Part shown: positions 13,849 to 16,489 of the stretch, one piece after another
How the letters are laid out: the number at the start of each line of letters is the position of its first letter
Numbering within the stretch: the first letter of the stretch is position 1
DNA from: Pseudomonadota bacterium
Lineage (GTDB): Bacteria > Desulfobacterota > Desulfuromonadia > Geobacterales > Pseudopelobacteraceae
Length of the DNA stretch: 45,223 bases
Assembly (NCBI GenBank): GCA_019352135.1
Contig: JABBNX010000010.1
Coordinates: 1 to 45,223 of the forward strand
Direction: 5' to 3'
Notes under the pieces: model-generated
Told to the model about the DNA's origin: nothing
The model's input: the letters and a program-made list of their open reading frames with translations, nothing else
Database searches by the model: none
Translations under genes and position numbers: made by a program

Positions 13849-15123
13849 TTATCCCTCTGCGACTTCCATGCTGGAACGCCACTTATATGCATCAAGCTGG
13901 GCATCAAGGAGCCTGTCCAGAGGAATATCAGTTGCTTCCACAAGTGTCTGGACTTCACCAAAGTTAACTTGTTCAAGCGTCTCGGCAAGAGCCAGAAGTT
14001 CGCCTAATTCGCCTCCACGATTAAGGAGCGCCTCAGTAACGGCATCGCTCATATTTAATTCCTGTAAGATTTGTTCCATGGATGTCTCAAAGAGAATATC
14101 CATAAGTGACATAATACCGGCCAAAAATGATTCATCAACCGCTTCGTTGTTTCGGGGGACGCCATGACGTAACATGGTTAGATACTCCATGAAACGTCCT
14201 CGGACAGCTGCCATCTCAAGAAGTGGGTTATTTATACCCCCGCTCGCAGCACAGGCATATATGGCGAGTTGCGTCCAACGGCGGAGTTTATCCAACCCAA
14301 GGATCATTATTGCATGACGAAGATTTTTAATTTTTTCCCGCAAACCGACGTTAACAGAGTTCACTAGCTTAATCAGGTTGTAGGATAGATCAGGATAGGT
14401 GCGAAATATCGCCTCGATATCATCGATATCCATATCTCCGCGCAGAGATTCGAGCAGTTTGAGCATGCCGATCTTTGAGGTATCAGGAGCTTTCCGTTTG
14501 AGCACTATCGGACGGGCGAAAAAATAACCTTGAAAGAGTTCGAAACCCAACTCCTGGCATTCCTCAAACTGTTCCATCGTTTCTACGCATTCAGCGAGGA
14601 GAACTACGGGGAATTGCTTCAGCTTCTGTACCATCTCGCGACAATCTTCGCTGGTCGTTTCAAGCAAATTTATTTTAATTATATCGACAAATTGGTAAAA
14701 CGCGGCATTTGTAGAGGAATACGTATGGTCATCAAGGGCCAGTCGAAAGCCCTGAGCTTTAAGAGTACGTGCCCGAGCCTCGTTCACTTCGTTAAAGGGC
14801 ATCGTTTCAAGAAGTTCCAGCACGATGTATTCCCGTGGAAGAAGTTCTATCGTTTCCGACAGCAACACGTCTTCGGTTATATTTATAAAACCGACCTTGT
14901 TTCCCAACACCTCATGCAGACCGAAATTGGTAAGGGCATTTGAAATGACACTGGCACTGGCAAAGTTCTGGCTATCATAGGTACTTCTATTACAGTCGGA
15001 AGAGCGGAAAAGAAGTTCATAACCCATAATTTCCTGCCTGACATCCAGTATCGGTTGCCTGCCAAGAAAGATTTCCTGCCTGTCTATTTTCTGATTCTGG
15101 AGTTCATTCAACTGCTTACCCAA
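13849..15123 (-). CDS. EAL-HDOD signalling protein with degenerate EAL domain
   Basis: A 424-residue cytoplasmic protein of the YuxH/CdgJ type. The N-terminal EAL-like domain (about 17-215) begins GRQPILDVRQEIMGYELLFR, so the EAL signature reads ELL. ALDDHTYS and LAECVET replace the usual DDFG and AEGVET motifs. Several metal ligands are therefore altered and it probably does not hydrolyse c-di-GMP. The C-terminal HDOD domain (about 220-400, SYNLIKLVNSVNVGLREKI, HAIMILGLDKLRRW) is a non-catalytic HD relative. The only plausible start is a TTG at 15123 without a strong ribosome site. It follows the HD-GYP regulator by 64 nt and probably shares its riboswitch-controlled transcript. Confidence 0.85.
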   Translation of the reverse strand: MGKQLNELQNQKIDRQEIFLGRQPILDVRQEIMGYELLFRSSDCNRSTYDSQNFASASVISNALTNFGLHEVLGNKVGFINITEDVLLSETIELLPREYIVLELLETMPFNEVNEARARTLKAQGFRLALDDHTYSSTNAAFYQFVDIIKINLLETTSEDCREMVQKLKQFPVVLLAECVETMEQFEECQELGFELFQGYFFARPIVLKRKAPDTSKIGMLKLLESLRGDMDIDDIEAIFRTYPDLSYNLIKLVNSVNVGLREKIKNLRHAIMILGLDKLRRWTQLAIYACAASGGINNPLLEMAAVRGRFMEYLTMLRHGVPRNNEAVDESFLAGIMSLMDILFETSMEQILQELNMSDAVTEALLNRGGELGELLALAETLEQVNFGEVQTLVEATDIPLDRLLDAQLDAYKWRSSMEVAEG

Positions 15124-15187: not shown

Positions 15188-16264
15188 CTATGTATAGCTG
15201 TATGCACTCGTAGTACGAATTTGTTTAAAATTCGATTCAAGTTTGATAAATGCTGCTACAATTTCTGCATCAAACTGTCTCCCGCTTTCCTGGGCTATCA
15301 TTTCTTTTACCTGTTCATGATCCATAGCCTTCCGGTAACAACGATCGGAGCAGAGAGCGTCATATACGTCGGCCAGAGCCATTATTCTGGCTGACAGAGG
15401 AATATTCGTACCCGACAGCCCATCCGGATACCCTTGCCCATCCCACCGTTCATGATGGTAGAGAGCAATCTCGATCCCCATGCCAATAAATGAGTTATCA
15501 GGATAGCGGTTATACACCGTCTGCATGTTACTTCCGCCGATGACGGTGTGGGTTTTCATGATTTCAAACTCTGCTTCGGTAAGTTTACCGGGTTTAAGCA
15601 GAACTGCATCGGGGATTGCCACTTTGCCAATATCGTGCAGAGTGGAGGCATGATACAGGCAATCAATATAATCAGGAGTGAGTTGCCCGGAATAGGAACT
15701 GTTGGCATTAAGATTTTCTGCCAGCTGACGACAATATTCCTGAACACGTTCAAGATGGGAACCGGTATCTTCGTCCCGGTTTTCGGCAAGTTTTGCCATG
15801 GCAAATATTGTCGCGTGCTGGGCTTTTGAAATCTCTAAGATCTTTTTTTCTACAACTTTCTGCAGTTCAATTGTTTCGGCCATTGAACGGAGATTAAGAT
15901 GCACGTCAATTCTTGCAAGGACTTCCTGATAATGAAAGGGCTTGGTGATATAATCAACACCTCCTGCCTGAAAACCACGAATGACGTCTTCTTGCTGCAC
16001 CATACCACTCAAAAATATAACCGGTGCCTTGAGACCTCTTCGCTTCACCTCTCTACAGAGCTCATATCCGTCCATTTTGGGCATGAATATGTCGAGCAGA
16101 ATCAAATCTGGAGGATTTTCTTCCATAAAATTCAATGCTTGAGTACCATCCAGAAAAGCTTTCGTTTCCCAGTTTCTGACATTAAGAATATTGCTTAAAA
16201 GCTCAAGTATTACAGGTTCATCATCAATAATGATAATTTTCTGTTTGGTAATGGCTGCATCCAT
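15188..16264 (-). CDS. HD-GYP response regulator, probable c-di-GMP phosphodiesterase
   Basis: A 358-residue RpfG-like protein. A receiver domain (about 8-125) has acidic residues DDE at 14-16, phospho-acceptor Asp58 in LILLDIFMP and Lys108 in TKPF. A linker helix leads to an HD-GYP domain (about 150-345) with HD at 210-211 in LHDIGK, HHERWDGQGYPDGL at 270-283 and LADVYDAL. All hallmark residues are intact, so hydrolysis of c-di-GMP is expected. ATG 16264 is preceded by GAGG; a longer frame to 16312 would run into the upstream terminator. It lies directly behind a GEMM-type riboswitch and its terminator. No partner kinase gene is adjacent. Confidence 0.93.
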   Translation of the reverse strand: MDAAITKQKIIIIDDEPVILELLSNILNVRNWETKAFLDGTQALNFMEENPPDLILLDIFMPKMDGYELCREVKRRGLKAPVIFLSGMVQQEDVIRGFQAGGVDYITKPFHYQEVLARIDVHLNLRSMAETIELQKVVEKKILEISKAQHATIFAMAKLAENRDEDTGSHLERVQEYCRQLAENLNANSSYSGQLTPDYIDCLYHASTLHDIGKVAIPDAVLLKPGKLTEAEFEIMKTHTVIGGSNMQTVYNRYPDNSFIGMGIEIALYHHERWDGQGYPDGLSGTNIPLSARIMALADVYDALCSDRCYRKAMDHEQVKEMIAQESGRQFDAEIVAAFIKLESNFKQIRTTSAYSYT

Positions 16265-16291: not shown

Positions 16292-16332
16292 AAAAAAACA
16301 AAAAACCTGCAATTTTGTGAAATGGCAGGTTT
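16292..16332 (-). terminator. Riboswitch expression-platform terminator
   Basis: On the minus strand AAACCTGC pairs with GCAGGTTT across a 14-nt loop, followed by a long U-tract (TTTTTTGTTTTTTT). It ends 28 nt before the HD-GYP start codon, inside the leader, which is where an attenuating terminator belongs. Its 5' arm and loop (TGCCATTTC, 16319-16327) are perfectly complementary to the 5' edge of the aptamer (GAAATGGCA, 16431-16439). Confidence 0.75.
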
Positions 16333-16369
16333 ATCGGATATTTTATGAAGTTAATATCCAGCTCATCTG

Positions 16370-16440
16370 TTCGACAACCCCTCTTCCCGTTCTGGGCAGG
16401 TAGCTTTGCGTCATCCGGTTCCCCGAATTTTGCCATTTCG
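16370..16440 (-). ncRNA. GEMM-type cyclic-dinucleotide riboswitch aptamer (c-di-GMP-I class)
   Basis: The minus strand shows the conserved GEMM core in order. GGCAAA (16429-16434) is followed by a 6-bp hairpin, ATTCGG/CCGGAT, capped by a GNRA loop (GGAA). Then come GACGCAAAGC (16403-16412), a short P2 region (CCC/GGG) and the closing GGGTTGTC. TGGCAA and TTGTCG (16372-16377) close P1. It sits between a promoter and a terminator in front of an HD-GYP gene, which fits c-di-GMP sensing. By my alignment the position equivalent to Vc2 G20 is G, but that of C92 is U. P2 is shorter than usual, so ligand choice is open. Confidence 0.75.
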
Positions 16441-16460
16441 TGATATTTTTAATCCTGCTA

Positions 16461-16489
16461 GTTATGAACCTCTTGTTTTCTTGTGTCAA
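16461..16489 (-). promoter_or_regulatory. Promoter of the riboswitch-HD-GYP transcript
   Basis: TTGACA (16484-16489, minus strand) and CATAAC (16461-16466) are 17 nt apart. Initiation near 16454 would start the RNA about 15-20 nt before the aptamer, matching a riboswitch leader. Confidence 0.6.

Follow-up and report, generated by a model that had tools for sequence, protein, structure and literature searches.

Two transcriptional GEMM-I platforms are described in the available text of PMC9262584. In Cd1 of Clostridioides difficile, which responds to c-di-GMP and acts as an OFF switch, terminator and aptamer coexist and compete with an antiterminator, whereas in pilM of Geobacter metallireducens, which responds to cGAMP and acts as an ON switch, strands T, A and H form a terminator that excludes the folded aptamer. 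The antiterminators are described there as P + A for pilM and T + A + H for Cd1, not as P + T. The GEMM riboswitches of Geobacter treated in PMC9262584, PMC6456294 and PMC8835794 are cGAMP units, described as ON switches in the available text of the first two. In Geobacter sulfurreducens, deletion of the cGAMP synthase gene lowered transcription behind GEMM-Ib units, and the anti-terminator of the GSU1761 unit is said to be stabilised by cGAMP (PMC6456294, available text). No such use of P and T is named in the available text on Bc1 (PMC11218506), on the Bc2 ON switch (PMC4933901) or of PMC2700814. Word searches of the literature, at the level of titles and the start of abstracts, showed no paper on a P + T antiterminator, although single examples may appear in two PNAS papers of 2015 about GEMM-I RNAs of Geobacter. 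Here we analyse a GEMM-I unit for which such a P + T antiterminator is predicted; the aptamer is already known, and what differs from published Cd1 and pilM is the lineage-restricted expression platform.

The unit lies on the minus strand of the window, that is, the whole stretch of 45,223 nt that was analysed. A sequence-only reading had named it a GEMM riboswitch, and the RF01051 covariance model agrees: its match at 16444-16370 (minus strand) is the only one in the window at gathering thresholds, covers the full model (positions 1-87) and scores 53.7 bits (cut-off 35; E = 7.5e-08). Its genome has 18 RF01051 matches at E <= 0.001, this aptamer included, and 16 of them exceed the cut-off. The motifs noticed earlier were all located at 16434-16403 (minus strand), namely GGCAAA (16434-16429), the P2 hairpin (16428-16413) with its GNRA loop (GGAA, 16422-16419), seen in the sequence, the RF01051 alignment and the fold, and GACGCAAAGC (16412-16403). 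Position 20 is a G, at 16434 and at model position 11, which we take to be residue 20 of Vc2; it is not the A20 of the cGAMP class, and from this G20 we infer that the predicted ligand is c-di-GMP. G20 and C92 are conserved pocket positions and G21 is among the key binding residues (PMC9049102, available text). The window unit thus resembles the RF01051 family in aptamer sequence and fold, in G20, in the GNRA-capped P2 and in its place before c-di-GMP-related genes, but differs from it in that the predicted antiterminator is the 5' pocket strand of the aptamer.

The remainder of the leader is organised as the earlier reading had proposed. The promoter TTGACA-17-CATAAC is present at 16489-16461 (minus strand; -35 hexamer 16489-16484, -10 hexamer 16466-16461, spacer 17) when read directly from the sequence; a consensus promoter scan, which accepts only second hexamers that end in T, did not list the pair. 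As raw counts without a null, TTGACA is the first hexamer of the top-scoring pair in 24 of the 37 units of subfamily A1 (defined below), the window's included, and the top-scoring pair is TTGACA-17-CATAA or CATAG in 12 of the 37. An intrinsic terminator is predicted at 16332-16292 (minus strand), with a hairpin at 16332-16303 and a U-rich tail at 16305-16292 that ends 27 nt 5' of the ATG at 16264 by our count (28 nt in the earlier one). The stretch 16295-16345 folds at -13.4 kcal/mol, with a z of -4.2. Its 5' arm begins 32-37 nt 3' of the aptamer, without the overlap with the aptamer 3' strand seen in pilM. Being separate, terminator and aptamer can coexist, as in Cd1. The linker between them is predicted to form a 26-nt spacer hairpin (16360-16335, minus strand); a hairpin is also frequent in the linkers of A1 units (z below -1.5 in 22 of 37, letters shuffled singly), though its letters are not conserved.

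The gene behind the terminator encodes a 358-aa response regulator that combines a REC domain and an HD domain of HD-GYP type (15188-16264, minus strand; Pfam HD_5 1.1e-30, Response_reg 2e-29), in line with the HD-GYP regulator named in the earlier reading. Both LHDIGK and GQGYP, which we take to be HD-GYP-type motifs, are present. It is followed by a gene for an EAL-HDOD protein (13849-15123, minus strand, start codon uncertain; Pfam EAL 7.9e-15, HDOD 7.3e-10), with which it forms a probable operon, and both products are probable c-di-GMP-degrading enzymes. Among ten compared HD-GYP loci, the EAL-HDOD gene adjoins the HD-GYP gene in the four closest (75-100% identical, the window's included), and no EAL-HDOD match was found inside the locus in the other six (57-59% identity). 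The same riboswitch type stands directly 5' of the EAL-HDOD gene in two other genomes (G025 and G031). Relatives of the HD-GYP protein in named genomes did not exceed 51% identity among the matches listed (at least 80 loci).

The earlier reading had matched 9 bp at the 5' edge of the aptamer to the terminator's 5' arm plus loop, and the match is exact: strand P, GAAATGGCA (16439-16431, minus strand), is perfectly complementary to strand T, TGCCATTTC (16327-16319, minus strand), so that P would supply the 5' half and T the 3' half of an antiterminator. The assignment of the pairing strand to P1 did not hold, as this strand is the junction and ligand pocket (G20, G21, C22 and A23) and P1 lies outside the RF01051 model. 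Its GGC is presumably G20, G21 and C22 in Vc2 numbering, as placed through the RF01051 alignment. The leader DNA was then searched against 76 genomes of the family, giving 87 listed matches, of which 10 extended to T and the rest were found through the aptamer or near flank; 86 were examined, one in genome G055 being left out. An aptamer match score of at least 99 selected 41 of the 86 units, and 40 of these, the window's included, had enough downstream DNA (L162 ends at a contig end). P and T form at least eight uninterrupted Watson-Crick pairs in 27 of the 40 and at least seven in 30, with fewer than seven in the other 10. The match is unlikely to arise by chance: within the subfamily, eight or more pairs occurred in 0.28% of shuffles of the T segment and in 0.7% when the whole downstream stretch was shuffled, and other 13-mers of the same aptamers reached eight pairs downstream in 7 of 640 cases. 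Fourteen units score below 99 but have GAAAAGGCA or GAAATGGCA as strand P; of these, one reaches eight pairs, L176, itself a member of A1. When P and T were swapped among 74 units, none of 2000 permutations was as good as the cognate pairing, a test that mixes subfamilies and partly reflects them. The 74 are the 86 minus 11 without a core pattern or script-detected terminator and minus the truncated L177; the terminator of L111 and the core of L122 were set by hand, and a P3-strand control in the same test was void, its pattern fitting one unit only. One unit, L159 (G025:C59), has an aptamer 91% identical by BLAST, but no terminator was found and no P:T match; it is possibly decayed or differently wired.

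Conservation within the subfamily was analysed in A1, a set of 37 units chosen by eye that includes the window's. It comprises every unit (34) in which a terminator was detected and the aptamer score reaches 99, together with L125, L126 and L176. Among the 34 aptamer-selected units, pairwise identity is 0.90 in the aptamer and 0.89 in T, compared with 0.34 in the linker, 0.49 in the loop and upper part of H, the strand that T pairs with in the terminator, and 0.83 in lower H. In an ordinary terminator both arms should be equally conserved. Column 129 of T is C in all 37 A1 units, yet just 16 of the terminators pair it, and columns 131 and 132 are U in all 37 with A or G as H partners (23/13 and 32/3, respectively). 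Since T is conserved while upper H has diverged and the C of column 129 is often unpaired, T seems to be held by something besides H, and P is the matching partner. With slid controls as the reference, P:T alignment cells are paired in 88.9% of cases in A1 against 34-50%, and RNAalifold, run on the 37 units with no structure supplied, returned P2, P3 and the P:T antiterminator as the consensus. An A-U pair is swapped to U-A on both sides in six units, the window's included; all six precede an HD-GYP or EAL-HDOD gene and the swaps are therefore probably one event. In two units of genome G007 the change is one-sided, with the U in P but no matching A in T. Because of common ancestry among the units, these counts are not independent. 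The comparison supports an antiterminator formed from the aptamer 5' strand and conserved across the subfamily.

Folding of the window unit was predicted in the order of transcription. If the RNA stops short of H, the 9-bp P:T helix is present in both the minimum-energy and the centroid fold computed without constraints, at -37 kcal/mol with a z of -3.5 (none of 200 shuffles as good); once H is added, the terminator is part of the minimum-energy fold. Forced states were also compared (P2 plus core pairs against P:T), with the terminator left unforced and inspected for the window unit only; the energies are secondary-structure estimates without tertiary contacts or kinetics. When T has just been made, P:T is better than the ligand-free aptamer by 5.6 kcal/mol, and at full length the aptamer-constrained state, here holding the terminator, is better than P:T by 0.6 kcal/mol. 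The early state favours P:T in 36 of the 37 A1 units and the late state favours the aptamer-constrained fold in 30, P:T still being predicted as favoured at full length in the other seven. As modelled, this order of stabilities is what an OFF switch tipped by its ligand would need.

We consider it likely that the window unit is an OFF-type, transcription-terminating c-di-GMP-I riboswitch with a P:T antiterminator. The aptamer would be the first part of the leader to emerge from RNA polymerase. With c-di-GMP bound, strand P (GAAATGGCA, with G20) would be locked in the ligand pocket, leaving T free for H, and the terminator would form and switch the HD-GYP/EAL-HDOD operon off. When c-di-GMP is scarce, T would pair with P upon emerging, dismantling the pocket and keeping T from H, so that transcription would proceed. 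Since strand P carries the pocket residues G20 and G21, P:T pairing and ligand binding should be mutually exclusive. The earlier reading had arrived at an OFF switch as well. That logic stands on the aptamer class, the separate terminator and a conserved antiterminator from the aptamer 5' strand that is predicted before the terminator, but not on P1, which was the wrong strand. From this scheme we infer the ligand effect, the efficiency of termination and a physiological role in which c-di-GMP-lowering proteins are kept for low c-di-GMP and the state is locked.

Other explanations were weighed. The terminator could respond through the aptamer 3' strand, in the manner of Cd1 (OFF) or pilM (ON), and the P:T match could be incidental. 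Cd1 and pilM are the transcriptional platforms given in the available text of PMC9262584, and across nine genomes the terminator has an arm that overlaps this 3' strand in 71 of 75 A20 units, compared with 14 of 44 G20 units. In the window unit, too, the aptamer 3' strand can pair with the terminator region (-10.1 kcal/mol), so it may have a Cd1-like part in the antiterminator. Against this, P:T is stronger (-13.2 kcal/mol) and is the fold predicted before H, the terminator arm of the window starts 32-37 nt past the aptamer, and pairing of the 3' strand with T showed no cognate signal in the 74 units (971 of 2000 permutations as good), unlike P with T. We regard control through the 3' strand with an incidental P:T match as unlikely. 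It is quite unlikely that the terminator is constitutive or weakly ligand-dependent and that P:T was inherited through a recent spread of whole units, with no regulatory role. The subfamily aptamers are about 90% identical, so that recent duplication is likely, and there is one clear compensatory change only, but such inheritance sits poorly with a T that has kept its identity (0.89) while the linker (0.34) and upper terminator strand (0.49) have not, and with a conserved C in T that 21 of 37 terminators leave unpaired.

The same mechanics might also serve an aptamer that reads cGAMP or both cyclic dinucleotides. An A at position 20, as in cGAMP-type units, is found in 11 of 15 units of this genome (E <= 1e-5), and a c-di-GMP-I riboswitch that carries the G20A change can bind cGAMP (PMC7288161, available text); the window unit, however, has G20, and we regard such an aptamer as decidedly improbable here. 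The c-di-GMP OFF switch with a P:T antiterminator thus remains our preferred reading of the window unit.

The reach of the platform was examined beyond A1. Among 40 divergent units, 36 were testable (four lacked a script-detected terminator or core), and cognate P:T pairing was no better than swapped pairing (1870 of 5000 permutations as good). The same was true of G20 units whose terminators are separate (30 units in nine genomes; 1523 of 5000), of which five, the window's included, have a P:T z below -2. As the swap controls outside the subfamily are negative, the P:T platform is, on these comparisons, a property of a subfamily. The wider idea that G20 GEMM-I units across the order share a P:T pairing in which positions 19 and 22 covary was dropped when its swap test failed; it had looked attractive in single units (L195, L261, L268 and L283). 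Pairing of H with the P3 5' strand was rejected too, the test on divergent units being negative (4484 of 5000) and the P3 letters varying while T is constant. A whole-unit model, R1, built from the 37 A1 units and searched over 141 genomes of the order, found 44 units that score more than 105 bits; they lie in 28 genomes, of which 27 belong to the window's family. The scores are circular because 37 of the 44 units built the model. In the window's own genome R1 has a single match at E <= 1e-4, the window's unit. That genome's other unit of GGCAAA type, L001 (G000:C34), precedes a frame that looks like a bacteriohemerythrin. Genomes G046 and G031 hold five and three strong copies, respectively, several before similar small genes, which has the appearance of a lineage-specific expansion.

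The A20 units of the same and related genomes provide a close comparison, as they too combine an RF01051 match with intrinsic terminators. In nine genomes including the window's, 121 of 123 RF01051 matches were examined, with position 20 counted from the start of the match; it was A in 75, G in 44 and another base in two. The 3'-strand overlap of the A20 units resembles pilM, a cGAMP ON switch (PMC9262584, available text), whereas the window terminator is separate and is matched to P, and the cGAMP-type units and the c-di-GMP-type unit of the window therefore appear to be wired in opposite directions through opposite strands of the aptamer. On balance we lean, with some reserve, towards a broader proposal: a c-di-GMP-I subfamily in the window's order would have evolved a distinct platform in which the pocket strand (G20, G21, C22) is the antiterminator, the same nucleotides being contested by the ligand, and which acts as an OFF switch, while cGAMP-type units use the other strand and act as ON switches. 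One RNA family would then carry opposite wiring for sister signals, and some OFF units would lock low c-di-GMP through phosphodiesterases.

The gene behind each of the 44 units was assigned by a script that chose the longest frame in the vicinity, and 21 of the 44, the window's included, were scanned with Pfam. The first gene is of HD-GYP type or EAL-HDOD in nine of the 44 (four REC-HD-GYP, two other HD-domain and three EAL-HDOD), the assignment of L216 being a 36% partial match and that of L219 an EAL match under the Pfam cut-off plus a 53% match. Other first genes encode PilZ (three, two of them Pfam-scanned), CheR (one) and FapA (one). By these assignments several downstream genes belong to types known from c-di-GMP signalling or motility; for others, among them those for an HU-like protein and a rubrerythrin, this is not obvious. 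By eye, a protein of about 110 aa with a motif around NGMLVEVYLVKYPRQYE stands behind 10 of the 44 units (e.g., L215:1084-1416 and L237:1148-1477, with eight similar frames), with no Pfam match in the two scanned and no NCBIfam match in the one scanned. A membrane-like protein of 88-98 aa stands behind six of the 44 by eye (L174:336-599 and five similar frames), and the one scanned gave no Pfam or NCBIfam match.

Because its relatives precede genes for PilZ, CheR, FapA, small proteins and others, the platform reads better as a general c-di-GMP-repressed device than as a purpose-built feedback loop. The sequence-only reading had called the arrangement opposite to simple feedback, which applies at the window locus only if the two proteins truly lower c-di-GMP, and which is one case among the genes that the platform precedes. 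Where it does apply, the design predicts that c-di-GMP-lowering proteins are repressed when c-di-GMP is already high, and two stable states would be favoured over homeostasis. The unit offers a specific, testable c-di-GMP OFF design in Geobacter-related organisms, with an antiterminator built from the ligand pocket, and beside the cGAMP-type units it may provide a compact comparison of one aptamer wired to opposite outcomes.
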